This document shows, piece by piece, positions 6,701 through 40,739 of a stretch of DNA of 64,000 nt. The stretch is taken from positions 11,512,017 to 11,576,016 of the forward strand of contig NC_084677.1 of assembly GCF_028389875.1 (NCBI RefSeq). The letters are read 5' to 3'. Positions within the stretch are counted from its first letter, which is position 1. Each line of letters opens with the position of its first letter. The notes beneath the pieces were generated by a model. It ran no database searches, was not told the origin of the DNA, and saw only the letters and a list, made by a program, of their open reading frames with translations. Made by a program: the position numbers and the translations under genes. This DNA comes from Rhea pennata. Taxonomy: Eukaryota > Chordata > Aves > Rheiformes > Rheidae.

Positions 6701-9700
6701 TTAGTCTGGCTGTATGGACAAAAATCACTCTTGAACAAGTAAACTATCTGATCATAAGCTGTTTGTTTAGACATGGGCCACTGGATTTGAAGATTCAGCA
6801 TCAGGGGTCTCAGCTTGTCTGTGTCGTTTATAATGTGCTTTTAGGTCTGAGGATCACAACAACACGAATCCTGAAAACTCTTCTAATCAGGCTAGCCCAT
6901 GGCCAATGCAGCTGCAGAGCAGCCTTGTCTGCACTGCAGGACCAATGTCAGCCTGCCAGGGAAGTTAATGATCTTTGTCATAGTCCAAAAGTATATTGAT
7001 GAAGTTCTGTAACCAAACATAATTTTATTAAGTTCACAGGACTCACATGACGATTTTTGAAAGGAATGAAAATTTATGACTGATTTCTGAATCATTGGAA
7101 AATTGATGTGTTATGAAAACAGCTCTAGAATAACAGTGATGTTCTTCAATGCAACCAACCTGATATTTTACATTTCTCACTGTCCAACTGTGAGCTATCA
7201 GTTCAATAACAGTAACAATTACTGGTGACAGAGTTTTTACATCTATACCTACATCAAAGGAAAAACAAAAATTGTGGAAAATATGAGATTAAACTCAGTG
7301 TACCCAAGATGCTACACTAAAACAGTGTCAGTGCTGGAAATAAAATTCAAGTTGATTGCATCACTGCACCAAGAATTTGTATTGTATATAACACAATTTG
7401 TATTGTATATAACACGTTCTGCATCAACCTAAGTATGATTATATAGCAAAAGGAAGAATGAGGCAGCATCAGATACAGGAAGCAAAGCCGGAAGTCTAAT
7501 TAGTATTTCCCTCTCTAATCTCACCAACATATCTGGTGTGTAGCAAATAATAAAAATCAGTGTTTTTTCCAAGACCAAAAAATATTAGATTTTTGTGACT
7601 TGGGAAAGGGAACTGCATTGTGCAAGGATGGATAGGTAGTATTTACATGAAAAAAAGCTGACCTTTTGCAGCAGGGGAAAGTGAAACAAAGCAGCTTCAC
7701 AAGAGAGTGGTTTGAAGGGAGAGCAGAACATCAGCTGGTACAGTAGAAGCTGAGCAGCATTTTCATTTGCTCAACAGATATAGTCTTTTCAGTCTACCCA
7801 CTACTGTAGCTTTCTTTGATGCAAACAAATCCCTTTTCTGCCTCCTTTCAAAGTACAAATCTATTTTGTATATCCTCACTTTAATTTACTTAGCTAGGGA
7901 AGCTTAGCTCAGACTCAGCATCTGTGAAATTCTTGCTTTTTACTGGTAATGATCGTATCTGGAGACATGCAGAGATTATTCAGTTTAGATAATTGTTTAA
8001 TAAGGGTTTCCAGAATTAGTGACAGGAGAGAGATCAGGATTCTAATTTCTGCTTTCCATATTCAATATTAGAGGTGGTCAATGCCAGCAAGGACCAGGAT
8101 TCATTAAAAGACACAATGGAAACAGTCTCATTTAAGCATGCGTAGGGCCAGAATCTGTCGGTAAATCAGATTTTTAAATGCTGTTCGTCTGTCCTAACAG
8201 TTCTGTTGTAAGTGAATAGCCCTTTCTAGTTCCTGACATTTTAACAACATGCTTGACATAAAGAACAAGCACTGCCTTTCTCTGACACATTCAGTTTCTG
8301 TCTTCACCTTGTTTAAATGTCAGGCAAGTCTTATAAGACATACATCTCTGTCAGTGTGTTTCAGAGTTAAAGGATCTCTCCTATCTGTTACTTAACTCTT
8401 CAGTTGGATTCATGTATGTGGTGCTTGAACATGGAGAAGTTTATTCAGCTGCAACTTTTCTGTGTGAACAGCAATATAGCTGTATAGAGAGCTATATTTG
8501 CGTTTCATGCTTTCATTCTTTCATTCTTCTGAAACAAGATTCCTGATAAACAGTGTTTTTACCTTAGGATCAGCAGTTACCAGGATTTTGGTTCTTTTAG
8601 GGAATTAGACACTTAAAAGATCTTGGTTACTCTTAGCATTTCATACATCCAGATTTTAATGTCACTGTAGTATCATATAGTTCAAAAATATGTCTACTCC
8701 TATTTTCTTTTCCAGCATGAGCTGCATTTGGAGGACAATATATAACCAATTTCTTGCAAATTAGGCAATCCTATTTTTATATCCAGGACATTCATGATGT
8801 GAATATTTAAAGGAATTATTTCATTGTAGGATGATAGATTTATCAATATCACATTGGCTGTAGCTAATCCATAGCCTGTCAGCCTCTTAAATCTTTGTAT
8901 TGGTTCAATTTCTTTTTTTGGTCTCCTTGAAGAAAACTCTTGCTGTTTGTCTTTTTCTTCCAGATTGCTTAGGAACCAGAGCCCCTTCTTCGGATGAAAT
9001 TATTAAATTAGCAGAAGCAAATGCCTTTTGGTCAGTTCAGGAACTGAAATGCATGGATGCAGAAACATTTGATAAAAATGTGGAACTTCTTGGGACTGTG
9101 TCAGATTTTAACAGCTCCCAACTTACTGTCTTGAAGGAAAAAGCCAAGCAGGTAACTATCCTGTCTGTGAAAGAAAATTAAATTCGTAATTTAATTTGCT
9201 GTTATCAAACTGTGTAGTTCTAAAGTAACTATGCTATTGCAATGTAACTATTGCTGGAAGAATATCTATTGTTTATTGGAAAAATAATGTGATTTGATGT
9301 TAGAAGATTATTGCCCTTGCTTTAGAGTCAAAAGGCAAGTAGTTCTGAGCTACTGGCAGCTGAACAACTTAAGTGCTTTTATTTTTCAACACCTTTTCAG
9401 TTGCTTGCTTCTTGTTTTTCTTCCAGAAAAGAGAGATCAGTAAGCCATACTATACACTATTGGTAGGCCTGCTGAGAATTAAGTTCAGTGTGTTAAATTG
9501 TCTACACGTTAAATGTAGCTTACAGTGGTATAAAACCAGATTGACTGAAAGAGACTTCTTAGCTGGGAAGCCTGATGTTCCCACCTGATTGCCACAGCCA
9601 GTGCACCAGGGACAAACTCATTGATGGGAAATTTTAGGGAGAAAAAAAACACTTGTGCTTGAAGTCTTTGTCTTCACTAGGTGGTTACAGGCAATTATTT

Positions 9701-12700
9701 AGAAAACAGAGCAGAGGGAAGATATCCTGCTTTGTCTGAGGAATGGGATTGGAGTCTCTTTGCCCATTAGTGCCCTTCCCCAGCTCCCTGCAGCACTGCT
9801 CGCACCTGCCTCTTTCCTGAGATGTGCAGCAGGGCTGGCTGTGGGGCTGCAGGCAGGGTGCCAGCAAGGAGCACTGCTGCCCGGCCAGGCATGGGCTCCT
9901 GCAGACACCTGAGGGAGAAGTCAGCCCTCGCCCCACACCTGCAGTCATCAGTGCTGCACCCCTCCCTGGAGGTGACTGCCTCCTGCTCCCTCTTGCTGCC
10001 TGCGCAGCTGCGGAACAGCTCTTGCGCCCTGTGCTGTCCCAAACATCCTTCTGTTGTAGGAAAGGAAAGCCTTAGGGTGCAATCCGACAAGTTATTTTGG
10101 CTGCAGAAGAGCCAGAGGTGAAGAGGGGACTGACCCCAGCCTGTCTGCAGCTGCTTGTCACCAGCCTCTCCTGTCTGCCTTCATCGCTGCGTGGCTAGCT
10201 GTTCCCTAATCCCTTTCTGTCAAAATGAGCCAACGTTTTTTTTTTTTTTAAAAAAATCCCTTTCAGGCTCCATCAGAGCAGTCTGACAGAACCAGGTTAG
10301 GAAGCATCTACAAGTACAATTAGTTGCAAGCAGCACAAGTGCAGGGGGCTGCGATCTCTGGAGGGAAGCAGAAACGGGACAAGGTGGGACAGGGCAGCAT
10401 CTCCTTAAACCAGGAGCTGCAGCCAGAACAGTGGAGCTGACCATGACCTTTGGGTAGGTGAGGCCAGAAGTGCAGTGTTTAGTAGTGAAGCTCAGCTTTT
10501 AAAACTCCTAAAATGCAGGTGCTTAAGGAGAAGTGGCACTAACTGGATTTTCAAAAGCAGATGCTGACCCTGGTCTCTGCTGCCTTGTTGCAGTAGGACA
10601 GCAGCCCTCTGCATCAGATGAGTTCTTCTGAAGACAGCCTCCCTCTGTCAACATGGAGACATGTGGCTAGGAAAAGGAAAAAAATATAACCCTAGAAGAA
10701 AATAAAAATACTGCTCATCTGAGATATTGGAAATAAAAATATTTTACAGCAGTGTGACATACTGGTATGCTTGCAGAGTGATACCTGTTCTAGAGAAATT
10801 GCCAGCAAGGTTAGTATACTCATATCCCAGCTATAATCAATTAAAAGATGCACAGATCTGAAGTGCACTAAATGCAAGAATACTTTGTCTGTGTGAATGT
10901 TTGTAAGAAAGATTACTGTTAGACAAAGCCAGACTTCCTGTATAATAGTTTATAAAATGTAACATGGTGTTAACACTGAAGTCAAAGCCTGAGAAATCAA
11001 ATAGTACAGGCAAAGCAACCACAATTCTTTGAAATTATCTGCATAAGATGATCTTTATTATTAACTAAAGGGCATCTTTGATTAAAGGTTTGATTAAACC
11101 AGCTTTATTTCTCCTAAACTGATTGATTCTGCATAGTCCTCTTGGGGCCAAACTAATTCAAAAAGTCCAGTTATCAGATTGTGTCTTAATCAAAATAAGA
11201 AGCTTAGGTGACTTAGAAGAGGAAGGTCTCTAAGCTCAGTGATAAACAGCTGTGTAGACCTGCAGCCTCTAGGTGAATGAGGACCACGGAGTGTTTCAGT
11301 TTTCATGTGTTGTGTTATTTATACTGTTACGTCTGAGATTTTATCTCTGTTGTCAGATAATACTATTTATGAAGCAGTTCAAATGCTTTATTTTATGACC
11401 TAGATCAGTAAACAGACACAGAATTTTTAACTGTACTTGTTTCATATACCCCTCAAGCTAGAGAATTAAGAGCTTTAAAATTGGGTAACACTTTATACTA
11501 TTTCTTTTATTTGGAAAAGATTGAAATTTCCCAGGCTAAATCCTTTTTATATTTCCTTATGACATTGTAAAACCAGCATAAAGGACTGTGTGGAAACTAG
11601 CTGACATAATGCAAATTTTCTGAAGTACATGAGACCATTAAACAAAACGTACTTTTCTTTTTCTTTTCTTTCCTTTTTTTTTTTTTTTTTTTGACTTATA
11701 CCTTTCTTTTTCTGGTTATTAATTTTAGCCAAAATCGAAGCTCTCTTCTCTCTGACAATTAGCCATATCCTCCCAGATGTGGACCACTGACTATCAGCTT
11801 CTATAATTTCCAACAAAATACAGTTAATAGTTCTGGGCTCTGCAAATTCAGCTCTAGATGGTCTTTTCTTATTCAGGTAGATCTTTCCTTGAAATCAGAA
11901 TTTTCTTAGGAGCTGGTCTGGGACAGCTTTTGAATTGGTGTAATTGTATTACAGATAAAGTTAAAGCAGTGGAACACATCAGTTTAAATACATCAGTATT
12001 GGTATAAAAGAGCCCTTATTTCTTTGTTTTTACAGAGCTTCACAGTTAACTGTATCTTTACAAACACATTAAAATGAATTTTAAAAATACTCTATGTACA
12101 CAAACTTGAAGTCAGAACTTTAGAAATGGTCTATTTGCCTGGATTATCCGATTCTCTACTTTGACTTCTGCCTTCCTTGTCACTGACTGCTCACGAAGGC
12201 AGTTTGAAGTCACTCCACTGCCGTGACTGCAGCTGATGCAAAAGCCTGCATGGTTCATTTGCTGCTTTTGTTGTAGCAGTAATAGTGTGGATCTTAGCAC
12301 AGGCTCACTTTTTTTGTTGTTTTTAGTGGCATTTGCTTCTACAGGAACACTTCCAGCAGTACCTGTACTGACTTAACAACAAGCTCAAGCTGTACAAATT
12401 GCAGTGTTTTTGGATGAACTCATCATTGCTAGTGTAGAACCTGAAATAGCTTCACAATACCTAAGCTCTGCCTATTGCGTGCAAAGAAGCATCCTTTGGC
12501 TGATGTGGTTTATCCTTGGGTATTGGGATTTCTAAAGCCCAAAGTTTTGAGAATGGTGCATAAGCAGGAAGATGCATAACGATCTGATAGACACTCTATG
12601 TTAATGAATTTATTCTAAAGGTTTGGGGATCACTGTCAGACTGGAAGAGTTACCATATTGTTTCTCTGGGGCGCATTGCTCTGGCACTCACTGAAAATGA

Positions 12701-15700
12701 AATAGAAGAGCTGGATTTACATTCTATTGACACCATTTCTATGCTGAGTCAACACACAGAGTGGACTTTTACTCAGGTAAATATTTTATTGAATTTACTA
12801 CTGGTGAAAGCCTCTTGATTCATGCCCTTTGGGACTGAAGTCCTGCAATTGCCTGGGAAACAGATTCAGGAATCCACACTATTCCGTGCTGGTTTTCTTT
12901 GGCCATGATCCCAGTAAAAGTGGCAAATAGGTCAGCACTAGTGTCTGTTTGCCTACTGGCTTCCTTGATGAGATGGCTAAGAGGACATCAATGAATATTA
13001 ATTGTGGTGGTGATAAGCGTATTCATGAGCACTTGCCCACTAAAAAATAGAATGTCAGCAGCTCCTCTCACACTGAGAAACTAAATATAGTAAATACTAA
13101 ATAGAAACCAGTGCCAGAAGCTATTAGCCCTTCCTAACTAAAACCAATCACCCAAGAGGTAGTGTGCACCCTAACCCCCAATGTTTATTGCTGTAGAAGC
13201 CTAAATTATTAGCAAAATGTGCCATCTAGATAGTATGCTCTTCTCATCTCCCTTTGCTTGAATAACTTCTAGTTATGTCAATAGGGCTTTCATATTAAAT
13301 GAAGAGAAGATTAAAAACTTTTATTTATGTATGCAGCTGGCAGCACATTTCTAATTTTGTGACCATACCATCACAGGTACTTGGTTGTACAGATGCTTGC
13401 ATGGTGGCAGGCAGCTTTGGCAGAATGTCATGGCTTGTTCTGATGAACTCTATCAGAAGGAAACAGGCAGTACTTGGGAGGATTTTATACAGTACTAGTT
13501 GGCTTTTGAGATTTCCTGCTGTTAATAAAAACAGCTGCTTAACCAGGATTCATTTCACCCACCTTCAGGAGTCTAAAAGTTAGGCACCTAGTTTAAGGCA
13601 GTCATTGAGGCTCCCTCTATAGAAAGAGGCACAGCACACTAGATAGACGCTAATCTGGCCATAAATCAGGATTTTGCTGAAGGTGCTTGTTTCTTTCACT
13701 GACTTTAGAGAATGCCTTGGCGACAGACCAAAGCTAGACACACAGTTTAGGATGAATGCCATCCTAAGTGACTTGGACGTGCAAAGGTATTTTGGCACCA
13801 CTCTCCCTTTCATATTTGTACCTTAATGCTAAACACAGGTCACCACCTATATATGACACTTTAATAGGACAAGCCAACCTAAAAATGTTGTATTGATCAC
13901 CTAGAGGAATTACATTTTCTCATGGTTGTTAGATTGAATTGGGCAGTTCTGCTTGGCACTTCAATGCCTGTGTCTGCTGGTGAAGTGTTCACTTGTGATG
14001 TCCCGTAAGAGGTGCAGGATGCTTCAGCTTGCTCATGCTTGGGAAGTGGTTGCATTAGTATCCTGGTTAAGTGTCACATAGAGGTGGTAACAGTGTTCCT
14101 GCTGGAGGCAGTGGCAAAATTCCAGCTAATTTCACTAAGGGAGACTCAGGATTATATATAGGCTGCTTGTAACACTCAGTTGCTTCTGGTAGAGTTGGAG
14201 CTTCTGTTAATAAAACCTTCGATTATATGTACTCTGTTATTGTATCATATGTTATTGCTTTTGCAGGCGAGATCTATATTGCAAGGTTTTCTAGAAGACT
14301 CTGGCCACACGATCAGTACACTAAAAAGCTTTGATTTAGTTGGATTAGGAGCTATTCTCTGTGCTCTGAATTCCACAGAAATCATGTCCATAAGGAGTGC
14401 TGAATTCAGGTACCGCATTTGATAATTGATGAGATATTTATCAGTATCTCTATTGATAGAATTCATTGTGCAATATGTTTTCCGTCAGGATTTCTAGAGC
14501 CTAAAGGACTATTTTAACACTTTAAATGCTTTTAGAAAACAGTTTAGATGCTTTAAGAGTAACTGTTATGGAAGACATACAGTCGTTGTTTAAAATAGAT
14601 TCTATAGCAGCTTTCCTCTATTTTCCTGCTATTCATATTTCAAGTATTGCATCGAGAAACCTGGGCTTTTGCTCAAAGCAGTCAACATTTGTATACGATC
14701 TGTGTGCATATATTTTAACTTGAAAATAGGTGCACAGTCTTGTTAAAGCAGACTAAGTACATTCCAGACATATTTAACATTGGGTGCAATTGCAGCACGT
14801 AGTGGTAACCTTGTTGCCTTTTGCAGTGCTGCTGTTGCAAGAATTGGCTTGTTGTTCTGTAGCACTCCTGTGCTAAAGCAGTTTAAGAAGATGGCAGAAT
14901 TGGTGTTCGGAATTGCTACCAGCTGGAACAACTCTATTCTACAGGAGATTGGTACTATAGCAGGTAATAAAACTCTGGCTCCAGATGGTGTTAGTTCTGA
15001 AGCGTTGTTATTAAGCATTAAGAGACAGGGCTCACACAGCCATGCATTTTTCCTCCTCTCTGGAAGAAATGCATTTTGCAGGTCAGGCTAGATCAGGTCA
15101 GGGCAATGTTCTAGCTGAGGGAGTTTCCTGCCTCCAACAGTGGAAAAAATGGGCTATCTAGGAAAGAGTGGAAGAACAACAGTAGCCTGCAGTATTGCTT
15201 CTCCAGAATACTGTCACAACCTCACTCCCTGAGCAAGAGGTCACACAGGATTTGTTGTTCATGTTTTTTTTTTTTTTCCCTGTAATTCTATTTAACTGCA
15301 CATTGAACTTATACAAATTTTAGCATCCCCAATGCCTGCAGCAATGATTCAACACTGTAAATAGTAATGGGTGAAGCACCTCCTGTTATACGTTTTGAAA
15401 GTCTTCCAATAATTTCACTAAATGCTCCCTAAATCTTATATTGGAAGACACTGTGAACAGGCATTCCCTCAAACACTGCATGACTTCACAGATTTTTATC
15501 CTACTTCCTCTCAATTGTCTCTTCTCCATGTCAGAGTTGTAGTTTATCTAGTGGTCCCTTAGGTAGAAGACATTCCATACCAATGGTTGACATGAGGTGG
15601 TTTGTAATGTTTGAATATAATGAAAGAAAACAAAACAAAATGAAAAAAGAACTAGTGCTTCTTTTTAAAACTTACTGGAGAAAAACAATTATTAGGCATT

Positions 15701-18700
15701 TTCTGTAGCTGCTTAAAAATCATATTAGCCTAAAAATACACCTAATGAAAATAATATTAACTGAATTCTGTTCCTGTTGTGTTTTTGTAGGTGGTTTGAA
15801 TGAGGATGAATTAAAAGCTTTTGATAAAAACTTGATGCCATATTTCCAGCCAGTAGCAATAAAAAATATACCTGCTGAAATTTTCCAAGTAAGAGTATGG
15901 TTACTGAAGAAGTAACCAAATTTCTATCATTTTTGCTCTCATATAAATAAGCTACAGCACTGATGTATGCTTTGGTTTGAGGTTTCAGCAAGAACTTTTC
16001 TATCATGTATTAAGTGAGAGGCAGTCAACGATTTGAATATTAACTGTCAACTACATCATCTGTATTTGTGATGTTAACAGCATTATTTATTCTTCAAAAT
16101 GCATTTCAAGGAAAAAGGACCATGAATTAGTTTAGAAATGCAATTCAAATATCCAGGGTCAGAATGCATGGAAGGGGAGTCTCTCTCTTCTGACACCATA
16201 TTCAGATCTGAGTTTTCTTCTCTGTTTATTAACATTTTCATGGATGCTATCATAGCTGCAAATTTTTGTGCTGATTATGTAAGAGTTTTTTGTTACCCTA
16301 AAATCTGGCAACATTCTCCCAAGTTAGCTCTGAAAAACAGATTGTACAAGCAGATACAGATCTGAAAGGAATTACATCTAATTACACCAGTTTTGAGTGT
16401 GGACCAGAAACTAGAACATGGATTTGAGATCATTGCCCCAGACTTTATTTGACTTGGTGACAAGATTAATATTCTACCTAGGCTGGTCCCTTTCCGATGC
16501 TCAGGCAAGCAGCATTCTTATGGACAGATGAGCTAAACAGATAGTTAACTGTGTCAGCTTCCAAAAAAGAGAAAAACCCCTTGTACGCTTACTGTTCTGC
16601 ATAGTACCACTGACAATTTAGATAAGCCTGAAACGTCCTTATGTCAAACTATTTCTCTGGAAAACAGGCAAAGCTGAAAGTCTATGGTATCTTGTAGAAT
16701 TCCTTTGAAATAGCATAAATTCTTGTTAATAAAAATTGTAATAATATTACAAAATGTGTTTAAAAATAACAGGTATCTTTCTAGAGGAGTTTTCTGTACT
16801 TGAAGGACTGAAAGCAGATTTTGTATTTACACAGGTTTTGTATAAATTTATTTTAGGGCTATGTACATTATTCAGACTATGATTTATGAAAAAAATGCAT
16901 TGTTTTATGGACCTTATTTTAATTAAAAGTGGCTCACTTCAAAATTCTGGACTGTCTGATAGGCATTTATATGAAGTTTAAAAAACACCATTTGCTAGAC
17001 CACCAAAAATTGGGAAGGATTTGCTCCATCATCTGATGTACTTGGAATGGGCATACAGTCTTTATAAAATAGCACCTGGATGCAGAATTGTTGCAGCAAG
17101 GAAGGCTTTTTATAGAGGGGAGTTAAAATTCCTGTGACTGCAGAATGTTAACTATAAAAAAACAATCTAGTATGCCCCATAGATGCAGATTTTACAAATT
17201 GGTTAATTGATGTGTGATATAGGATAATTATTGTAAGATTATGATTACCATGTTCCATTTTAAACACAAGATTTAATATGAGTGAACTTGGAAAATTTTC
17301 GATCTCAAAAAGAAGAGTGAATAATAAGATTAGAGCATGTCTTTTCATCTCACTGTTCTACCAATAACTAATCAGGGGTCAAACAGAAGTTCAAGTGAGG
17401 TAGCTTGGGAGCAAATGTAAGAGGAAATAAATGAAAGCACAGAAAGATGAATAGCGTCATCAGCCTTTGAGTAAATCAGAAAACAAGTGATTGGAAAATT
17501 AAATTCCAGTAATATATTGAATCATTGTCAAATACAGTGCTAGCATATAATGGTGCTCATGCTGTCCGAGCCAAGTAGCAAAGAGAAGGCTGAAAGGTAA
17601 ATGTTCAGTGAAGTAAATGAATGCAGAGGTTTGTCAAGCTCTCTTGAGCTCTTGTATAGCAACGCAATGTGGAAGGCCACTTCTCATTCTAAATGCAAGG
17701 CAGAGCTTCCGATTCCCTACCTGCATTGCATAATTGACAGCCTAAACTGTTTGTTCTGGCTTTTGTTCCTCACAGGCATTGTTCCCAGAACAAATAGCAA
17801 ACCTGGGCCCCGAAAATGCCGCCATGGTTACTGAATCACAGCGTGAGCGTCTGAGCATGTCACAGCTCCAAAGTCTTCAGCTGGCACTGGATGGTGCCAG
17901 GACAAGCACCCAAGAGACGCACAGCAACACAAGCACCACTCAGGTGGCACAAACCCCAGCTCCAAGCGGTGAGTAGAGTCGCTCTCTCCTCCTGTTTGGA
18001 GGAGGACACTCACACGTCGAGGGCTGAGCAGTCTCCCAGCATCCACCAGACTCAGACCCTTATTTTGAACGTGTGTTACAGTGAATACTCTGATGAGCGT
18101 GTTTCAACTCGAGTGCAGCTCATGCATCTGACCAAGAAGAGCAGCAAGGATTTTGTTGGATTTACCCACAGCAAGAGATAATGGAGAAAGATTGTCAGGT
18201 GGCAATAGCAGCTATATGCTGCTAGTATAACAAGACACTGTGTTAAACACGGGCTTGAGTAAAATGTAGTAAAAAACATTTCTTTTTCTTTCCCTCCTTC
18301 CCTCCTTCCATCTTTCCCCCTTTCCTTCCTCCCTGCCTCCCATATTTTCTGCCTAAATAGTTTAAAGCAGGGCTGTCCATCTCTGGACCTTCAGATCACA
18401 ACTTTTATCTGCAGTAGATCTTAGTTTGCAGAGCTGCAAGTGGGAAAGGAGATAGCACTGGGGTAGATTAACATCTTTATCCAAAACAGTTTTAGGGCTA
18501 TTTCAACAGTTTTTCCTGCTGTTCCCATCCTATTTGGAATGACAGCCCATAATAGCTAGGCTTCAGTGGTTTAACTTATTACTTCTCCATATTGTAAGTC
18601 ATATTAGCAAGTTATACTGGTAAATATGTTAATGGATGTTTTACAGTTAGTGATAGTTTACACATTGTCAAGCCAGTGTTGAGGAATTAGCCTTATCAGA

Positions 18701-19303
18701 GAGCAAATACTGTTTCTTCCACTACCACTTTCCTCCTTCCAGCCCTGCAGTGAGAGAGAGGCTGTTGAAGAAATGAGAGGGATGTTGAGATGGTAAAATA
18801 GGAGTAAGGGGGACTAAATTGCTATGTTGCACTTGCTGGAATTAGGACAGACCTTCCCAGAAGCAACTGAAAAATACTCTCAGACCAGGTCTGTGGCCTC
18901 CATCTCCCTCTGGGGATATGCCAAAGGGAGGAGCTCTCTGTGTAGAGATCACCTGAGTTCCTGAGCTTCTCATTTGCTTTTTTATCTCAGTGATGCAGTG
19001 AGTACTTTCCCTTTGAATTGCTTCTCTTTGGAGCTTAAGTGTTAAATTGGAAGTGACTGTGCTGGACAGTGTAATCTTCTGAGCAGCTGAATGTAGTTAG
19101 AAGAGTCCAAATGTTGGAATTTGCTACGCTCCTATCTGAGATGTCTTTGCCTCTCTGTTGGGTGAAGAAAGGTGGCTTAAATAAGACAGCATTAGATTGA
19201 ACAATGGCAATAAGCATAATGATTCTGCTTTTCAGGTGCTCCCCATTTGAATAGCTTCAGCATCTGGTTGTGTGCTGTGTTTGTGCTTCCCCTGCCCTTC
19301 TGA
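709..19303 (+). CDS. OTOA: Otoancorin, C-terminal part (11 spliced exons, 5' end outside window)
   Basis: Otoancorin is a GPI-anchored glycoprotein of the mesothelin/stereocilin superfamily, on the apical surface of inner-ear non-sensory cells where acellular gels attach. Exons read here: 709-844, 1738-1928, 4173-4266, 5486-5615, 8964-9151, 12621-12776, 14267-14409, 14827-14963, 15791-15888, 17776-17968 and 19236-19303. Every junction has AG/GT signals and the phases agree (0, 2, 0, 1, 0, 0, 2, 1, 0, 1), giving one open frame of about 510 residues ending at TGA 19301-19303. Known otoancorins are about 1,150 residues, so roughly the last 45 percent is present. The frame is Leu/Ile-rich and helical, as in the family, with segments such as [19 protein letters not shown], and has several N-glycosylation sequons. 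Assignment to OTOA rather than another superfamily member rests on remembered similarity to human OTOA. An extra small exon in a large intron cannot be excluded. Confidence 0.8.
7374..7415. repeat. Perfect 21-bp tandem duplication in an OTOA intron
   Basis: The unit AATTTGTATTGTATATAACAC occurs twice head to tail (7374-7394 and 7395-7415) with no mismatch. It lies in the intron between exons 5486-5615 and 8964-9151 and has no visible coding or splicing role. Identical copies suggest a recent duplication. Confidence 0.9.
9152..12620. other. Large OTOA intron with a GC-rich segment at about 9740-10480
   Basis: The intron between OTOA exons 8964-9151 and 12621-12776 (phase 0). Most of it is AT-rich, but about 9740-10480 is GC-rich, with many CTGCAG/GCAGC words, open frames on both strands, and ends near a T-run/A-run at about 10236-10257. 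No splice-flanked open reading frame in OTOA phase was found there. It could be an old repeat or a regulatory element. A T19 run lies at 11674-11692. Confidence 0.5.
18279..18340 (+). repeat. Polypyrimidine tract (CCTTC-type) in last OTOA intron
   Basis: About 60 bases of almost pure T and C with imperfect CCTTC repeats, in the intron between the penultimate and last OTOA exons. Low-complexity sequence; it is too far from the acceptor at 19235 to be its pyrimidine tract. Confidence 0.7.
19236..19303 (+). CDS. OTOA: OTOA terminal exon: hydrophobic GPI-attachment tail and stop
   Basis: The acceptor TTTTCAG ends at 19235. The exon completes a phase-1 glycine and encodes about 22 residues ending in a hydrophobic run ([15 protein letters not shown]) directly before TGA. 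A short hydrophobic C-terminus with no cytoplasmic residues, after a Ser/Thr-rich stretch in exon 17776-17968, is the usual form of a GPI-anchor signal and agrees with the known GPI anchoring of otoancorin. The exact cleavage residue is not evident. Confidence 0.75.
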
Positions 19304-20249
19304 ATCCATAATTGTTAGGCTTATGGTAAGTTACATTTTCAGTAAGAGGTATCTTTATAACAAACACAGCTCACCTGTGACAGTGATTGCTTAGCAGTAA
19401 CAAGATAGGGTGAAGAACTGCAAGAGAGCCCCTCCTTGCTTTGAGTATAGAGATAACAATTTCTGAGTAACGTTTCTGTATTACAAAGGTGCCTTATACT
19501 TACCTCTCAAACATAGACTACCTTAGAATCTAATCGGGGGAAAGCATTTTATTTTATCTTTACTGTAAGGGCAACCTTAACAAAATGTATATTTAAAGTT
19601 CTATGTAACACTAATCAACTACAGCGTTGTTACTTGAGGCGTGTTGTTGGTATTAACCTGTATTTTGCCTGTTCCAGTATATTGTTAAGATTTTATTCCA
19701 CAATTGCTTTGATAACCTCCAATTAAATGAATGTTGTCGTTAATTGTCGTTAACTCAATGTATTTTACTATTTTGGCAGGATCAAATTTAACCAGAGCTC
19801 TGGTGGACTTAAGTTACAAACTCCACTAGTTAAGCAAACTAAATGCTCTAGTGTTCTCCTTACTGTTAAAGACTGCAACTCAAGGTATGTAAAAAGATTT
19901 GATATTTTTCTTTACTTGCTTTTCAGTACCCTGGAGCTCACAAAGGTGATGATAGAACCAAAGAGTTGCAGCTCAGCACAGTTCAGAGGCTCTGAGTTGC
20001 TTGAGTGCGAAGTGGTAGATTTCTTAAAAAGCAACACCTTCATCTGGCATCATGGTGTGAAGTAAACCCTCTGTCTACCTTCACACATAAAACAGCATTC
20101 CTCCAAATATTTCAGAATAAGCAGAACTGGAAATGGCTTAAGTGTCTTATGAGGAAACCACTAAAAGGCATACTTACGTGCTAGAAAGGTGCCTGAATAA
20201 CTTAGAGGACAACTAGCAGGTGATTGTTATTCAGAAGCTGATGTATTGT

Positions 20250-20253
<4 letters not shown>

Positions 20254-20284
<31 letters not shown>
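20254..20284 (+). repeat. T31 homopolymer in OTOA 3' region
   Basis: A run of 31 T between the OTOA stop codon and its candidate poly(A) signal. On the minus strand it would read as a poly(A) tail, but I could not recognise an inserted retrocopy body or target-site duplication beside it. Confidence 0.9.
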
Positions 20285-20287
<3 letters not shown>

Positions 20288-20422
20288 GTGGCTAATTTGG
20301 TCATGATATTGCATCCATCTGTTGGGGCTTTTTTGCTTATACTATGAGTATATGTTCCTCAGGGCAGGGGGCAGCTTTTTGTGTGTCTTGATAGAGACTG
20401 TACTAAAAGTTACTGCTGTTGC

Positions 20423-20428
20423 AATAAA
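20423..20428 (+). terminator. OTOA: Candidate OTOA poly(A) signal (AATAAA)
   Basis: AATAAA about 1.1 kb after the OTOA stop codon, on the same strand. A weaker ATTAAA lies at about 19722. Which is used cannot be told from sequence alone. Confidence 0.45.
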
Positions 20429-20429
20429 A

Positions 20430-22985
20430 TAATTTCATCTCTGGGTTGCTGGTCTGAATCTTGCTCAGATAAAAAGTGATCATATATTCTTACCATTTAA
20501 GTGCCTGTGTGAAATGTAGTTCCCAATGGCTATATGTATACAACGCAGAGCTGTCAACACCGAGGGCGCTGGCGATACTGTTAACTTTGCATGTGACAAA
20601 ATGCACCATGGAAGCCTGCCTACCTTCATCAGGAGGCAGTCTCTTCCTCACTTCAGGCAGGGTTGAAGCATACGGCTGGGAGTAGTATGAGCAAACTGTT
20701 CACTGGGAGTACAGACATTACTAGGACTAAACATACAGCATTGTTCACAAGCTCAAAATCAATAATTAACTACTTATAATTATAAACCACAAATATTTGC
20801 ACATGTTCTATCAACATACGGTTTGTGTGTCCAGTGTTTTTCATGTCAGGCTCCAGTATTTTAAACAACAGAAAAAAAATAGATACATTAAAAATCCTTT
20901 GCATCTGAACATACATTTTGCTCTTGGTCAACATGATTTTACACAAAGAACTCGTGGTACAGTTTTCCATTTTGCATTGCAAAAGTCTTTTTCTTTCCTG
21001 GATTAAAAAGACAATGCATAGACCTAAAAATTTAGCTGTTCCTTTTATAGCTGTACTATTGCAAATGTCTTTCGAACTTATATTCCTTTATGACAAATAT
21101 CAGATCCAGCTTCTCAGCACTGAAAGCAGAACTGAAATTTTACTACAGGTGAGGAAGGGTTAGGAGTGGAGCTGGGAGGCAGAGCTGGAGGGAAAAGCCT
21201 GGAGAAGGAGGCTTGCTGATGCTGCTGGGGAAGGATGAATATAAGCTGTTACTGCTATTGGGAATAACAGCTCCCACCACAGTCCCACATATTCTTTAAT
21301 TCCTCTTGCAGCAGTAGCAGGAGCCGGCCTGAATTCCAGGGCTCTGTTATTGGCAAAGTGGGCAATGAGAGCAGGGCCGCTTTGCACCTGGTCCTGCTCC
21401 CTTTTCCCCTTGAGCAGTCTGCTGCTCTAGCCACTGTCTTTGCCTGTATCTGGCCTTGGCAAATGTGACATGATGTTACATATAGTATTACATGTTTCAG
21501 TTCTGCATTTTATGAGCAAAGAGCTACTACTATTGCTGCAAATTGCCTTGCACCTTTTTCTCTAGTGCAGAAGGGAAGATACTAGCTTTTTCCATTGAGT
21601 TCCCTTTTCTACATGTAAACAGTAAATTATGGCATTTATTTAAAACTACAAAAAATCTATCAATCCCAGCAAATACATGCAAATACCCACTAAAACTTGA
21701 AATATTTCAATGATTCAAGTATATTAGAAAGAGTCATCTGTTTTCTTACATTAAAAACTCCTGCCTCATTTAGACGTAAAAGTCCTAAAAGGTTGGTTGA
21801 TTTCCAGAAATTACCTGACCTGAATTCTGCATGCATTTCAGTCAAGATGCAAGAGAGTATTTTCATAGTAAATAGTCAGTGTTTCCAGTTCAGCTGTTAA
21901 GCTTAGATACGTGACTTAGCAATACCGAGCACTTCAGAAATGAGTTGAAAACGCTCTTCCTCTGTCAATGTATCTGGGAGTAAATCAGTTTACAATTATG
22001 TGAGTCGGAGTTTAGCTTTTAATTGGAGCAGGAGTGAGATCTTTGTTTCATACCATCTGTGCCATTATTTCTTTCAAGTGCAAGTGTTTTTAAATTGTTG
22101 AACTCCTTGATTATTTATTTATTTTATTAGATTAGTAATTATGTTAATGTCTTTGGTATTGCATTTACATTTGGTCATAGACGTATCTATTTCTTACAAC
22201 AGTAATGAAGGAAAGGTAGGTGTGGAGCACCCATTTAATGTACTTACTGGATGAAAAGCACAGTGTGAGATTGCCAGTCCTATTTAGCTTGTAAGATGGT
22301 ATGAGCATCTTGGCAAGTATTGTGGACATGCAATTTTGCTTTTGCCAATGTACTTCTTTTAGAGGTCACTGCTGGAAATGTTTCTTCTGCAAAAACTGGA
22401 GTTCAAGAGATTTCCTGCTTCAAAACCCTTGAAACTGAATTTCTGTGTTCAGAATAGATAGGGAGGGAAGAAAGGGATGGAGAGCACTACTAATACGCAT
22501 GGTATGTAATCTATTCTCTGTTCAGCTTGGCATACTTCCATTGCTAGGAAGAAACTGAAATGTGAATAGTGCACTTTACTTTTTACTGCTGTGATGCAAA
22601 GCACAGAATAACTAGATGCAGGCATCCACGCCATATGGTACTGTTCGTCAGAAGGATCTCTAACCTGTACATATGTATATAATATATAATGCACATGATT
22701 ACTTTCACGGGAATGTGTTCATGGGCAAGACATCTCACAGTCTCTCTCTTATCACATCATCAGGATTTTGAGGAAGAATACGCTACAGAGAAAAGTTGTA
22801 TAAAGATCTCTCTGATCCTTAAAGAAATGCTTCTGTTTGCTTTAGATGTGGGTAAGATTAAATCAAGCTTAATTTTCCTATATCCTTTTAGTTCTATCAT
22901 TTATATTTTAAGAATGACAAAATAATCAGACTCTAATACAGAAATCTGCTGTTGAATATATGTCATGACGATCTCATTTGCTTAC
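20430..22985. other. Intergenic stretch after OTOA; no supported gene
   Basis: From the OTOA poly(A) region to the minus-strand exon at 22986. It holds AT-rich sequence and one GC-richer patch at about 21160-21420. Small open frames on both strands here lack convincing splice sites. If the minus-strand exon is real, its downstream exons should be sought here. Confidence 0.4.
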
Positions 22986-23441
22986 CTGCACATTGTGAGA
23001 ATTGCAGCTCTGCTTTCCACTTGTGACTACTCTGATGACTGCTGGGCGCTGCAGGACATCCGGCTGGATGTACCTCTGATTGCTGGTGTGGATGTAACCC
23101 TGGTGTAGGCCAAGCTCTTCTGGGGTGTTGTGAATCAAGTGACAGATGGCAGTGTCCAGCAGTATGTAAGTGGGAGTGTTTAATTCATTTGACAGGATGT
23201 AGAAGAACTCTTCAGAGGTTAACAGGCAGAAAGAAATACTTTGTCTTCTTATTATAGTGTCTGCCACTTTTATATTCAGAATCATGTATGAAAAAGAAAA
23301 AAGGGCTACCACCTCTGGATCAGTAATGGAGAAAATATCCCTAGCACCTGGTACTGAGGAAGTCTCAGATGGGAGTCTGGCATCTTTAAATCCCTGAAGA
23401 TAAGAAAGCAACTCCCCCTCCACAGTGTCAGAAGAGTGTCC
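22986..23441 (-). CDS. Unassigned coding exon with storkhead-like winged-helix features
   Basis: On the minus strand an open frame of 152 codons runs from an acceptor (CTCTACAG, exon starts at 23441) to a strong donor (GTGCAG then GTAAGC, exon ends at 22986). Both ends are phase 0. A second acceptor with a better pyrimidine tract (TTATCTTCAG) would start it at 23393, also phase 0. I do not recognise the gene. The second half (TSEEFFYIL, then ILLDTAICHLIHN, then GYIHTSNQRYIQP) aligns by eye with the storkhead-box winged helix of STOX1/STOX2, which has a matching helix-helix-wing order ending in GYFIVTPQTYFITP. Codons are ordinary and the frame has no stops. It lies between OTOA and KDELR2, opposite in direction to both. 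It may be one exon of a larger gene, or a relic. Confidence 0.45.
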
Positions 23442-24399
23442 CTGTAGAGTTGGCACCGTGGTTGTTGTCAGTTTTCATACAGTATGTGGTATGTTTGGCT
23501 CCTAGTGATCTCAATCTGTCACATCAGAGCTAACCAGCTCTTATATATGTAAGGCTCTAAAGATACAGCTTTTTAAGGACATCCTCCTTTAATTTTAAAG
23601 TTAAGAATCCCTTTTCTGACTCTATATAATCTATTCAAATACTTCGGAAGCAATTAATGTACTGCATTATGGCCAATTTGGCTTTTGCTTGACTGCTGTA
23701 CCTATCTTTCAAGATCATCGCCACCTGATTTGTCTTCCCAAAATGCAGTCAACTAGATGGCCCTGGTCTAGTACGACACGAGTGCTTTATTAAGAATTTC
23801 CATTCTGTCTGCCCACATCAAAGCAGCATCCCTCTGCGGATCACCAGGCATGCCTCCCAGGTGTGCCCGTCAAGTACTGTGTCCCAGAGAGGTTTGACTA
23901 ACTCAAATGACACTCATCCGGCAACTCATAAATAAGCGAGGAATTAAACAGTTAACGGGAAAGAGTCACATTAGTAAGTGATTCTGTAGCATCGATCATG
24001 GTGAATTTGCTGGTATTCTCACTTTTAGTGCATAGTGGTAGTTACAGATTCTGCATTCTTAGGAGCGCGCACATAGCCAGTTATGGCATGCCAGTCGAGA
24101 AGTGGTAGCTTGTTAAACCGTGGCAGCTCATTCCCTTGTTATAGGTCACCATTATCTTTACAGAGGGGTAGAAATCAAATTTTGAATAATCTTTTCATTT
24201 TTTTTAGAAAAGCTGATATTCTAGGCTGATACACAACTTCAAGAATGTGATATCTCTATTTTAGTGAAAATGTTTTTGATAAATGGTGAGGGTTTTTTTT
24301 TAGCAAGATCTGTAGATACATGGGCCTACCATCTCAGGGGGGCTAAAAAATTTATTTCCTTATAAATTCTCTTACATTTCTGACTGGTAAAACACTCAC

Positions 24400-24519
24400 T
24401 CCCATGCCATACTCTGTGGCACAATGTTGTGGATTGCTTGCTTTTCCATTCTGTTTGGGCCAGAGCTCTGTCTTCCCCTTCCAATAAGGCATGAAGGAAA
24501 CTGGATAGAGAAGAGAAGT
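24400..24519 (-). CDS. Possible second minus-strand exon (weak)
   Basis: A 120-base segment open on the minus strand, between a good acceptor (TTATTCTTTGCAG, exon starts at 24519) and a GTGAGT donor (exon ends at 24400), phase 1 at both ends. It encodes 40 residues including FLHALLEGEDRALAQTEW. It lies upstream, in transcription order, of the exon at 22986-23441, but direct joining in phase 1 meets a stop. An alternative donor (CACAGA then GTATGG) would restore phase 0. It may be chance. Confidence 0.2.
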
Positions 24520-27099
24520 CTGCAAAGAATAAACACAAACTCCTAATGTAAGCTACATTTCTCTTATCAGCACCCCCAATTCATACTTGGAACATTTGAA
24601 ATCTTTCTTCAGAAATACTAAGCTCTGTGTTGTGGATTGCTATACAGCCTGCTTTAAAACATGTAGGAAGTTAACACACTCTTTAGAGACCAAACTAAAT
24701 CTGTTGCCATCCAAGGACTCGGAACTTCATATTTTGGTCAAGTGTCTGGTCCATTATGAAATTATCTTTCAGTATCTGTCTACTCAGTTCTGAAACAGAA
24801 ATTATCTCAGACACTGCAGCTGACCTCAGCTGGTATCAGGCTAGTAGCAGTTTTTTTAGCATACAATATCTTTGTCAAATTAATGTCTGGTTCTTTAATG
24901 GTACCCGTAAGTATATATTCTGGAAATGTGTTATATTTTGTCTTTGACAGCTATGCTAAGAGTAGCAAGCAGCCAATGTCCATCTGTCTCTTCCTGCCCC
25001 TTCCTGTTCAGCATCAGTGTGCTTTTCCAATCTGGATTAGTAAGAGGATTTTCTTCCCCTCATGATGCAGGAACACAAGGCATGTTCAGAGCTTACAAAG
25101 TGTCTGTAGATTGCAGTATTAAATGGAGGAGTTGTGACTGCTGAATTTCTTGCTTTAGAGGCAACAGCATAACATTTATCTTTTAATGTTTCAGCTGGTA
25201 TTAATTAGCCGTACAAACATTTAATAGCATCTCACCATATCGGAAAGCTTCTCTTTTAGGGAGGAGAAAAGAGAGGGCAAGGGTGAATTGCTAGAGGAGA
25301 AATCTAAAAATAGAGGAAAATTCCAATCTGTTGCAAATACAGCAGGCTATTTTTTTCTGATACTCTTTTCCCCAAGAACTTTTAACCATGGTGTAGAACT
25401 GTATTGATTTATCAAAGACTAGGCATTGCTGTAGTTAAAATCATGTTGGTTTGATGCACACGCTAAAGCAGTCCAAGGTTATCCTTAACTAGGGCCTGAT
25501 GTGTTTCAATATTTAACCAGATATCAGAAAATAACTTGGATTACAAACAAGCTCTGACTATATCCTGCAGGAACTGAGAAAAGGATTGACAGAGAAGGGA
25601 TATCAGCTCTGTGCCTTTAATACATCTATTAGACTAGCTTCCAGTTATGCACATCTGTCAGTTTTTTCTTAGGTACTTCTATTTCAGTACTCATCCTTTT
25701 AGAATTGTTTACAGCTAACAGTCTAAATGTACATATCTCAATCAAATTTGTGTCAAGCAGCTAATCTAGCTAGTTCAGCCAGTGCTCTAAGACATAAACT
25801 GTACTTTCCTAACCTTTATTGTTACACTTGTATATAGCGATGGAAGTGCCGCAGCATTGCAATGACAGTGCTTGTAGTTATTTAGTTTCACTTTTCCCAT
25901 GGTTGCAATCCATATCATGGGCGTGACAAGAGCTGTCAAATGCTTGTAATCTTCGGTACAAATTCTGCAGGTAGCAGGTCTGGGTACCTAACGTGTCCTG
26001 CATCCTCAAGCAGGCAATTTACTGAGGACTACCTGAAACATTTTTTGATGATGTCTAAAGTTACTCAATATCATTTAGAATAATCGATCAATTAGAGTCC
26101 AAATCTATTTCACTTTTCAAACATAATATAAAGCCTCTTTTCTTCAAGCCTTGTAAGAGTAAGGTAAGCCCCCATATGATGGGACTTGTCAAGGAAATGT
26201 ATTGCTGGACTTGTAAATGAAGTGATTGAAGAGGGTAGGTTTTGATACCTAATCTCTGAAAATAAGTAAATGTCTTCCTATCACACCACGGGTACTTGCT
26301 AAAAAAAAAAAAAAAAAAGACAGAAAATGCTAATTAATTCCCTTTAGTTTCAGGGACTATGCAAGTCCTTTAAAGATTTCAGTGTTTATGCAATATTTTA
26401 AATATGAAAATTAAAAACTGGGGAGAGAGCGAGAACACTGGAGAGTTACTGGAGATACACTGCTTAAGAGTAGGTGCCTTCAGATTTGGGATTCATGACT
26501 CTTCAGCGATACAGCACGCTAGCTTGCAAAACCCTGCTGCAAGGAACAACCACTATTTTTTCGTTAAGAGAACTATCCACATGCTTTGTACACTCTCTTG
26601 GACTGTTAAGCAAGAATCAAATCACTAGCTTATTTTCACAAAACATTAAAATACCTGCTAAATATCAGCTGCCCCGATGTCTGATCCCAACATTACAAGG
26701 CAAATTCTCTTTCCTGGCACACTTAGTGGCTCTAGACAGTGCTAGGGAATACACTTCCAGGTTCCTTGCTGTTCCAGAAGCGTGCGTTTTGGGGTATTTG
26801 CTAACTTTGGTTTGTTCTGCAGACGTGTCTTAACGCTGTGCAGACAGGAAATGCTGCTGCGGCGCGACCAGCACGGGAACGAGCCCTGGATGCACAGATT
26901 TGTTCTGTGCTTGCTGTAACTTCGGAATCTGGAATGTAGTCACTGCACAGACTGAGAGTTGTAACAAGCACCAACCCTTGGAGACAGACACAGGGATTTC
27001 AGGAAAGATTTTGTATCCCAATGTTTTTACTGTCGTTTGCTTCACTTCCCCCTTCCAGGCTTTTGTCTTTTTCAGAAGGTGAGTTATATCCGTGTCGGC
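24520..27099. other. Non-coding interval upstream of KDELR2
   Basis: AT-rich sequence with an A18 run at 26301-26318 and scattered short open frames. Nothing here has both splice signals and recognisable protein sequence. From about 27100 it passes into the KDELR2 CpG island. Confidence 0.4.
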
Positions 27100-27402
27100 T
27101 TCTGCCGCTCTCCAGACAAGGGCTGCAGCCGCCGCAGCACGGTAACGGGCCCCTCCCGGTAAACACCGGGCAATTCCCAAAGCGCCCGCAGCGCCGGCGC
27201 GGGGCCTCCCGGGCAGCGCTGCCCTCCCGCGGGGCGGCGGCCCCCAGGGCGGGCGGCTCCCGCCGGCCCGGCCCGGCGCTGGCGGCGGCGGCGCCCTGAG
27301 GGGGCCGCGGCGGCGGGAGCGCGCGGCGGGCGCGTGCGGCGGCCGGGGGCGGGGCCGGCCCCCTCCCGTTTCCCAGGGTGCACCGGGCGCGGTGGCTGTC
27401 TG

Positions 27403-27423
27403 GCCACGTCCCCGGGCCACGTC
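27403..27423 (+). promoter_or_regulatory. KDELR2: Paired XBP1/UPR-like elements (GCCACGTC x2)
   Basis: GCCACGTC at 27403-27410 and again at 27416-27423, 13 bases apart and about 75-95 bases before the ATG. The core matches the reverse complement of the unfolded-protein-response element GACGTGGC bound by XBP1/ATF6. KDELR genes are known UPR targets, so function is plausible but inferred. Confidence 0.45.
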
Positions 27424-27495
27424 GCTCGGTGCCCGCTGAGCTTTCGCCATCTTCGCTCCCCGGCTCCGGGCTGCGCCGCCGCCTCTGCCGCCGCC

Positions 27496-30400
27496 ATGAA
27501 CATCTTCCGCCTCACCGGGGACTTGTCCCACCTGGCGGCCATCATCATCCTGCTGCTCAAGATCTGGAAGAGCCGCTCCTGCGCTGGTGCGTGCGGCGGG
27601 CGGGCGGGGCAGAGGCCGCGGCGGCGGGACCGGCGGGGCGGCCGAGGGGGGCCGCGGCGGGGGCCGGCCGCGGCGGGCGCCCTCCCTGAAGCGGGGGCGC
27701 CGGGCTCGCCTCGGCCGCCGTTAGCGGCCGTTTCTTCTCTGAGGGGAGCTGTTTGGAGGGGAGGGGAGCGGCTGTGGTAATCGCCCCGGGGGGGGGGGGG
27801 GGGGGTTAGACCTGCTCGAGGCGCCGCCACGGCCCCCGGGCGGGAGGGCAGGCTGCCGCGCAGACCTGGCCCGGGCGGGGGGAAGAGGGACCGTGGCTGT
27901 GCCAGCGCGGGGCAGAGGGGGCTCCGCGGCCGGCCGAGCCCCGCCGGCTTGGGCCCCCTCCGCAGCGGGGGCGGGGGTGGGCGGCCGGGGGGAGCCGCTT
28001 CCTCAGCGCCGGGTGCGTGTGGGGGAGCACCCGCGGGAGCCGCGTTTCCGCGGAGCGCTTAGCGTTTGTGATGATCGGTACTTTAATCCCTACGAATCGC
28101 CACTTTCGCCGTCTCCCGGGCGGGCAGCTCGTTCCTTATGTAACTGCCCGGCGGCACGCGAATGAATGGGGAGGCCGCCTTGGAGCGGGGAGGGAGGAAT
28201 GCGTCTCCCGCAGGGCGGGCAGCCTCCCTTCCCCGCTCCCGGCGGCGGGCAGCTGCCACCGGAGAGGGAACCGGGCTTATTTTCTCGCTTTTTTTTTTTT
28301 TTTTTTTTTTTTTTTCCTGACAGTACACGGTATTCTGTCTGCGTGTTTACTTAGCAGCTTTAGACCCTGATGTGTGAAAGCTAAATTTGGTGCAACGTGT
28401 AGAGTAGCTGACTTGCAGTTTGCAGATCCTGAAGTTTCTCTCACCCCCTTCTTTTTCCTGCACACGTTGGTATGCGTTCACCGCAAACAAATGCACTCTC
28501 TTCTGTTCTTTTGCTTTCTTTCCTCTCTACCGTAGGAGCTAAATTGTGATTCATGCCGTTTTTAAGGGTTTTGGAGTCTTTTCCTATCTGTAGCAGCAAC
28601 TGCAGAAGAAAGCTGGAAGAAATTGCCTGTTTCCAGGCTGGAGTGAATAGGCTTTCAGTAGAGATCCCTGGCCTGGTCTGACGTGGCAGCGGGAAGGTGT
28701 GGCGGGGAGGGAGCTGGGTCCCGGCCGCCCTCCAGGCCCGGCGTGGGGCAAAGCCCTGCTCCCGCGACCCGCTCCTCTGCTGCGGGGCCTCTGTCAGTAC
28801 GGGTGGGAAGTGCTGCTGCTTTATTCTGTGTTTTGTATGCGCTTGCTTTAATTTCAAGTGATGTAATTTGCTTTTTCACTTCTAGCATACAGTATGGAGG
28901 TTGGAGGGAATCACTTCAGAAGCAAGCAATTCTTGTAATGGCAATATAGTTGACTATTTTAGAAAACTAAAAAAAGTTGTAATTTAAAATGGGCATTTTG
29001 GTGCTCAGTGTTATCTGGAACAGATTGCCAAACATGGAAATACCATCTTTTTTGTGGACTGGCGTTTGACAGGGAGTTTGATTCTTCATGAGCATCTCCT
29101 TCATTAGTAAGAGCGGTAATTTCTCAGACCATAGTTTGCTGTGTGTTGGCATGAAGTACTGCTGAAATACCAAGTTTACAAAGTTGAACAGATGTATCTG
29201 TAAAGTCCTCAATTAAGAATGTAGATTAGGAGTTAGTTTAAACTGCACCCTGAAAAGACTAATAATGGGGAGATGAGATTTCAACTACAGGTAAGAGAAG
29301 GTGCAGATTCTGTGTATTTTCCTATCAAGTCACCTTTTGCTTATCCCTTCATAGTGCAAAAGAAATAGTAAGCAATCAGCTTTGGTTGAGAACCATGCTT
29401 ACTGTATGTGCATTTTTTAACTTTATAAAAGACTTCAGACAAATGACTCCACAATTCAAATGCAATGATAGTTAAGAACAATCATTTCTGAGGTTGTGAA
29501 GCCCAGGAAGCTCCTTCCCAGTAATCTTTCCTGGCTCAAGCTCTGGTGGATCAGGAGTTCTGTGTGTAGATCTGTCAGAAGGGGCTTGTTCTAGAACTCC
29601 TTCTTGGAGTTCTGTCCTCTTCCACTTTACTTGAGAAATACTGACAATATTGCAAACAAAAAAGGGTTAACGATTCAAGAAATAAGTATTTCTTCCTATC
29701 TGAAGAAAGAAAATGAGAAATTCTTTTGCACGGTTAAAATTCATAGTAGAGTTTTAGTTAGGAGATTCCCAAGTGACCTTTGTACATGAGGCTATTTACA
29801 TAGTTTAGTGCAATATAATAACCTAATTCAGTCTCATCTTTCCACTTAAAAGTGATCTGATGTTGTTTTCCCTAAGCCATGTGAGACTGAGACTCTGTTA
29901 TTAGGGACTTATAAATAAGAAAGAAAAATCATGCCAATCAGCATCTTTGGTATTGCTTTTTCCAAGACAGAGAAGTAAATATTACATAGGGTTCACAACC
30001 CTTACCATTACCAAATGAGCCAGTTTCTGCTAAAACACAAACATATATGCACGTTCTCTTTCAGTGGAAAATGTCATCTTCATTCATTTTCCTGGGCAAA
30101 AAACAGAGATGGGATGCATTTGCCTGGGATTATTTTTTGGTGTCTTCTAGTTCTGCCCAATTGTTCAGGAGTAAATCCATATCCATTTTTCTTGTAATAT
30201 CTGAGACCTAACAAGTTTGGCTAGGATGAGATCAGCACCTCAAAGGAACATGGGATTTTATTTTTGGGGCTCCTTCCTGTTCCTTGTAGTGGTTTATTGT
30301 CAGTTATCATTTCTACTACTAAAAACTTGATCTATTTACACAAAATACTCCTGTCAAGACTTTTCAACAATAAACCCTAAATAGTTACTAGTTGATGTGC

Positions 30401-39704: not shown

Positions 39705-40622
39705 AATAAATTCAGTGTATAGTTTCAATTGGAATAGTTTCAAAAGTGAGATTTTTTTTGTGAGATTGTTAATGACCAGGAACAAGTGCAAACTTTTTTT
39801 TTTTTTTTTTTAATTTCCAAGAATTTCTTTGAAATGACTCTTCTTTTCAGTGCACAAATGTGTGCATCCTTGATGGATGGTAGTCATCTATTCTTTCCCT
39901 TTTGATTCAATTTTCATTCCACTATATTTATTTTTTCCAAAAGGTGAATATATGTCAACTTAAATCTGAAACCACCAATGTTTTATGTGATGTGCTGGTG
40001 CTCAGTCTTTGTGCCCTATGCTGACGTGGAGTTCCTTATTTAAAATGTGTGTTGGTGCCAGAAGGAACAGTCTCACACTGTGTTTTCCTTCTAAGACAGG
40101 ATGATGGCAAGAGTAGAGTAAAGAAATCACTCTTGTGGCCACAAGAATGTGCCCTTTCCTGTGTTGCCATGATATCTGGGAAGGTAATCCCAATAATAAA
40201 AGCACTTGGCAGTGCAGGTCGTGAAGGATAAGAGTTACGGTTTTATTATTCAGCGGCAAATGTTTGTAACTGTGTTTTTCATTCAGGAAAAGAAGGTTAA
40301 ATATCTTGGATGTACAGCTGTATTATATCACAGCAGCTGTAGAAATGGGAGACTTGTAAGATGTTGATTACTGTAATCTGTAGGTGATCATTTTAAATAC
40401 TATCTACACTTTCTCTTTAATGAATGCTTTATAAGCAACATCCATGTTCAGCTTCAAGTGGTTTTTGATGTCACTTTTGGATAATTAATATTTTTTTATA
40501 AACTTCTCAAAATCAGCAGCACCAGTTACCATTCTTTGTCCTTTAAATGATTTCCCCCTCCCCCCCCTTTTTTTTTTACTGAGCTGTTGCATGATTTATC
40601 CTGTGTTACCATCCTCAATAAA
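39705..40622 (+). terminator. KDELR2: KDELR2 poly(A) signals (39705 and 40617)
   Basis: AATAAA occurs at 39705-39710 and 40617-40622, about 250 and 1,160 bases after the stop. The distal one follows a T-rich 3'UTR and is the likelier main site. Use of both would give short and long transcripts. Confidence 0.6.
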
Positions 40623-40739
40623 CATTTTATGAAAGAGTGAAAATGGCATTTTTATTTCTGAATTAAGGCTCTCTCTTGGCCTAAGGTTGGATGAAAAGTC
40701 GTAGCAAGGGGCAGTTTAATTTCATTATTCACTGAGCAG

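Follow-up and report, generated by a model that had tools for sequence, protein, structure and literature searches.

The minus-strand segment 23393-22986 is best read, with modest confidence, as an internal coding exon of a multi-exon gene that matches none of the families searched and is oriented head-to-head relative to KDELR2 and convergently relative to OTOA. Coordinates refer to the window, the whole stretch of 64,000 nucleotides analysed (G000:C15:11512017-11576016; genome 1.27 Gb). A first-pass annotation had placed a minus-strand exon with a storkhead-box signature between the OTOA and KDELR2 positions. The exon is probably real, as judged from its splice sites and rarity, while the signature did not hold. 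If expressed and conserved, the exon marks a gene at the OTOA-KDELR2 junction and a protein family outside the searched profile libraries. If not, it provides a good example of a family match made by eye that fails calibration.

Exon boundaries

The 152 open codons originally annotated at 22986-23441 on the minus strand are present inside a stop-to-stop frame of 166 codons. The strong donor at 22986 (GCAG/GTAAGC) was confirmed with a score of 7.3, as was phase 0 at both ends. Splice scores derive from position weight matrices with assumed frequencies, not trained on this genome. The acceptor at 23441, described as good, scores 0.4, whereas an in-frame acceptor at 23393 (AGTTGCTTTCTTATCTTCAG) reaches 7.3. 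Hence, the exon most likely spans 23393-22986 with 136 codons, and the segment 23394-23441 is probably intron.

22974..23474, minus strand: whole stop-to-stop frame, 166 codons plus stop
22986..23393, minus strand: candidate coding exon, 408 nt, 136 codons, phase 0/0, acceptor 7.3, donor 7.3
23394..23441, minus strand: extra 48 nt of the exon as first annotated, weak acceptor; contains the pyrimidine tract of the better acceptor

Coding character

Frame length by itself is only mildly unusual: frames of at least 166 codons occurred in 9 of 500 Markov sequences of 11 kb, counting both strands. An open frame between good splice sites, as looked for in a coding exon, exceeds chance expectation. 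In the surrounding 264 kb, no other open candidate reaches 400 nt while scoring 7 or more at both splice sites. Expectations for these 264 kb assume a stop frequency of 0.055 per codon. At this threshold, the minus strand holds 13 site pairs with 0.002 expected to be open and one seen, the plus strand 24 pairs with 0.0 expected and none seen. Open pairs were absent from the controls (reversed, 0 of 12; complement, 0 of 2), and no such candidate arose in 200 Markov sequences of 64 kb, one strand each. With both splice scores lowered to 5, two open candidates of at least 400 nt were seen on both strands of the 264 kb against 0.019 expected, the second being an MFS exon confirmed by Pfam. When the length limit at 5/5 is lowered to 200 nt, open pairs number 8, against 0.94 expected. 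They form seven clusters over both strands; besides this exon, two of these were put to Pfam, and both (MFS and KDELR2) are supported by it. The thresholds were set with the exon already in view and the finding was picked from a scan, so that these rarity figures somewhat overstate the case. This selection by a reader, together with the attainable frame length, favours a random open frame between decoy splice sites. Such an origin is nevertheless improbable in view of the 0.002 and 0.019 candidates expected and the empty controls.

Codon usage was scored with a model trained on 14 coding-sequence pieces of the same genome. The exon score of 0.027 exceeds 97.5% of noncoding segments and ranks at percentile 46 among 28 coding segments scored leave-one-out. 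A slightly higher score (0.058) was obtained for the antisense frame r0, yet this frame contains 6 stops; all five alternative frames over the exon, r0 included, carry 6-10 stops each. Among the three frames of this strand, frame 0 is favoured by RNY content and codon-position GC. In an earlier codon test with less training material, the frame came 23rd among 140 open frames, but that test was uninformative, giving -0.111 even for the known KDELR2 exon. By DNA, the exon maps to a single genomic locus, as it does by protein at E<=1e-3. No tandem repeats were found over it.

Profile searches yielded no Pfam family at E<=10, either for the frame or for its pieces, under HMMER filters that drop most matches above about 0.1. 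Searches of PDB sequences (E<=1e-3) and PHROGs gave no relative of the exon. A PDB sequence match to a phytoplasma effector (E 0.07) was taken as chance. The minus strand of 15000-27599, translated in three frames with X at stops, was without Pfam match. Plus-strand positions 1-15001, which should hold OTOA, were likewise without match, so that the test is a weak one. A mobile or viral origin was rejected on the basis of the single genomic place by DNA, the lack of a PHROGs match, and 16 pattern matches to viral contigs, none of which was confirmed. Structured RNA was not detected in 15000-28000 by Rfam at gathering score.

Genomic context

Pfam and PDB sequences confirmed KDELR2 exons on the plus strand, and Pfam also a lipase exon of DAGLB type. 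An MFS_2 (Pfam) exon is located about 59 kb left of the window, and exons that we take to be CDR2- and METTL9-like lie about 75 and 32 kb left of it, respectively. The label OTOA is our assumption from gene order, with no profile behind it. None of three OTOA-like exons tested had a Pfam match. For a longer frame enclosing one of these, Pfam returned no more than a sub-threshold match to HAUS2. The plus-strand segment 17776-17968, with an acceptor of 9.0 and a donor of 5.3, is a strong candidate for an exon and resembles an OTOA C-terminal stretch. OTOA thus probably extends as far as 18 kb or beyond, which would make the gene-poor interval shorter than it first appears. A run of 31 T occupies 20254-20284 of the plus strand. 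Further to the right, the 2-kb bin 40001-42000 is GC-rich (0.583) and includes a plus-strand frame (41181-41519) that resembles the DAGLB start; this bin is probably the DAGLB promoter island.

The 2-kb bin 26001-28000 is also rich in GC (0.584) and contains a KDELR2-like first-exon frame at 27377-27586. It might serve as a bidirectional CpG-island promoter of KDELR2, from which a spliced noncoding transcript could arise with an exon open by chance. A real splice signal requires no coding, and the GC-rich bin would fit this view. However, at 0.055 stops per codon, chance alone would leave one or another frame of a 408-nt exon open in about 0.14% of cases (own arithmetic), and the codon usage is coding-like. 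A noncoding transcript is therefore considered decidedly unlikely.

The gene order points to a bird genome. METTL9, IGSF6, OTOA, and KDELR2 are listed as adjacent in one region of chicken GGA14, and KDELR2, DAGLB, and RAC1 in a region overlapping it (PMC11050503). The quail gene list carries the same genes as the chicken list (PMC10970133). Neither list names a further gene beside OTOA or KDELR2 (PMC11050503; PMC10970133), but such lists may not follow a strict order and leave out unnamed genes. The titles and abstract openings retrieved from the open subset of PubMed Central contained no report of a gene between OTOA and KDELR2.

Putative gene structure

Three minus-strand places in 12000-27700 combine an acceptor of at least 5, a donor of at least 3, and a length of at least 45 nt. 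These are 25303-25236 (phase 2 to 0), 24519-24376 (0 to 0), and 23393-22986 (0 to 0), and they chain in phase. Further candidates were noted downstream.

25236..25303, minus strand: possible earlier exon, weak; 68 nt, phase 2 to 0, ends in ATG, acceptor 7.2, donor 4.7
24376..24519, minus strand: possible preceding exon; 144 nt, phase 0/0 (also open 2/1), acceptor 7.4, donor 3.5
20770..20997, minus strand: possible last exon, weak; phase 0 start, 75 codons to stop, acceptor 6.2
20494..20675, minus strand: possible downstream exon, weak; phase 0 to 2, acceptor 2.1, donor 4.8

The segment 24519-24376, which contains a nested acceptor at 24500, belongs to a class defined by an acceptor of at least 7, a donor of at least 3, and at least 120 nt. 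On the minus strand of the 264 kb, seven open acceptors of this class compare with 1.2 expected, and the two controls gave none against 0.86 and 0.76 expected. Among the seven, only 23393-22986 and 24519-24376 have phase 0/0, and they are about 1 kb apart. Another member, 34487-34331, runs antisense over a KDELR2-matching frame and is probably false. Since the class is thus impure, 24519-24376 is a likely, but not a sure, exon. The case for 25303-25236 is weaker, because the two controls also yield exons as short as 68 nt, 5 in one and 2 in the other, compared with 10 on the minus strand (each per 264 kb).

Downstream, 20675-20494 has a combined score exceeded by only one other candidate on the minus strand between 12000 and 27700. 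Neither this segment nor 20997-20770 matched a family. The downstream side gave no internal exon whose two splice scores both reach 3, and at acceptor 4 and donor 5 no flanking exon was found on either side. The exon might be a stop-free remnant of a gene now in decay, or already lost, in this lineage. The lack of a convincing downstream exon and of a family match would fit such a remnant, whereas the frame and both splice sites are intact and stops abound in the other five frames. Overall, a remnant is regarded as unlikely, though it deserves to be kept in mind.

For the preferred reading, a coding exon of a functional gene, transcription would start from the KDELR2 side. The exon 23393-22986 would be joined in phase 0 to 24519-24376, possibly preceded by 25303-25236, whose last codon would be the ATG. 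The predicted product is a small, mainly helical protein of no recognised family. As no profile searched detects the exon, a fast-evolving, tissue-restricted protein may be guessed. Points that weigh against the preferred reading are the missing family match, the lack of flanking exons at the scores given above, the slightly higher codon score of r0, the rank in the earlier codon test, and the chicken and quail gene lists. There is a slight chance, rated just below that of a noncoding transcript, that the gene is one of birds or sauropsids without mammalian counterpart, which was kept at the OTOA-KDELR2 junction and encodes a domain not yet described, perhaps a winged helix that has diverged strongly.

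Relation to storkhead-box proteins

The storkhead winged-helix signature had been read by eye from the stretches TSEEFFYIL, LDTAICHLIH, and GYIHTSNQRYIQP. It was not recovered by profile search or local alignment: PF10264 did not match, and the local alignments of the frame to STOX1 and STOX2 remained at shuffle level. The intron position also appears to differ. The winged helix of STOX1 is described as highly conserved, with 78.5% identity from mouse to human (PMC7934881), so that a profile should detect an ordinary family member. Genome-wide, PF10264 was found at 4 places (E<=10), all on contigs C7 and C4 and none at this locus. The genes concerned are taken to be STOX1 and STOX2; which is which was read from their sequences.

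Local alignment of the frame to STOX1 scored 28, a value attained by 574/1000 shuffles; for STOX2 the score was 31, attained by 279/1000. With BLOSUM45, the scores were reached by 681/1000 and 459/1000 shuffles; STOX1 and STOX2 score 337 against each other in these settings. An HMM built from both proteins scored the frame at -0.9, 791st of 905 entries, nearly all of which were shuffles of the frame. The best STOX alignment score ranks the frame 7th among the window's 48 open frames of at least 100 aa. MAFFT alignment of the exon with STOX1 and STOX2 produced no meaningful register. Cheap-gap global alignment of the second half was reached by 52 of 2000 shuffles for STOX1 and 195 of 2000 for STOX2; with two proteins and several tests tried, the STOX1 signal appears weak. 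Single-sequence AlphaFold2 models had pLDDT values of 31.3 (152 residues) and 40.0 (93 residues), with helices and no strand, too low to use.

In tblastn searches of the window with STOX1 and STOX2, the best E value was 4.5, and nothing covered the exon at E<=50. The large following exon with the EWP(V/L)RDED motif of STOX1 and STOX2 was not found in this way. A STOX2 piece (E 10) begins exactly at the possible acceptor 20997.

Two minus-strand segments, 22664-22449 and 20675-20496, resembled by eye what we take to be the human STOX1 segment after the winged helix. Both were rejected, their scores against STOX1 and STOX2 being reached by 139/1000 and 786/1000 shuffles for the former and by 723/1000 and 129/1000 for the latter. 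As two competing places were both convincing by eye, such matches weigh little. For the upstream candidate 24519-24376, the scores were reached by 127/1000 and 769/1000 shuffles. No report of a third vertebrate storkhead gene was found in the titles and abstract openings retrieved from the PubMed Central open subset.

A third, strongly diverged STOX gene is thus very improbable. It would draw on the likeness by eye of the three stretches, the helices predicted over them (pLDDT only 31 and 40), the rarely reached second-half alignment to STOX1, and the STOX2 piece at acceptor 20997. These are outweighed by the missing PF10264 match, local alignments and HMM at shuffle level, the unlike intron position, and the tblastn result over the exon. 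On present evidence, as far as sequence comparison goes, the exon is not part of a storkhead gene.

Comparison with known systems

Viewed by eye, the second half of the frame shows the helix-helix-G-Y order of STOX1 and STOX2. In both genes of the same genome, however, the domain appears to be split by an intron after YPG/FPG, at profile positions 42-45, whereas the candidate frame is unbroken. A large exon follows the domain in STOX1 and STOX2, while the window holds no large STOX-like exon. From an ordinary vertebrate coding exon, the candidate differs in having no family in Pfam, PDB sequences, or PHROGs, but it is alike in splice sites, phase, codon usage, and single copy.
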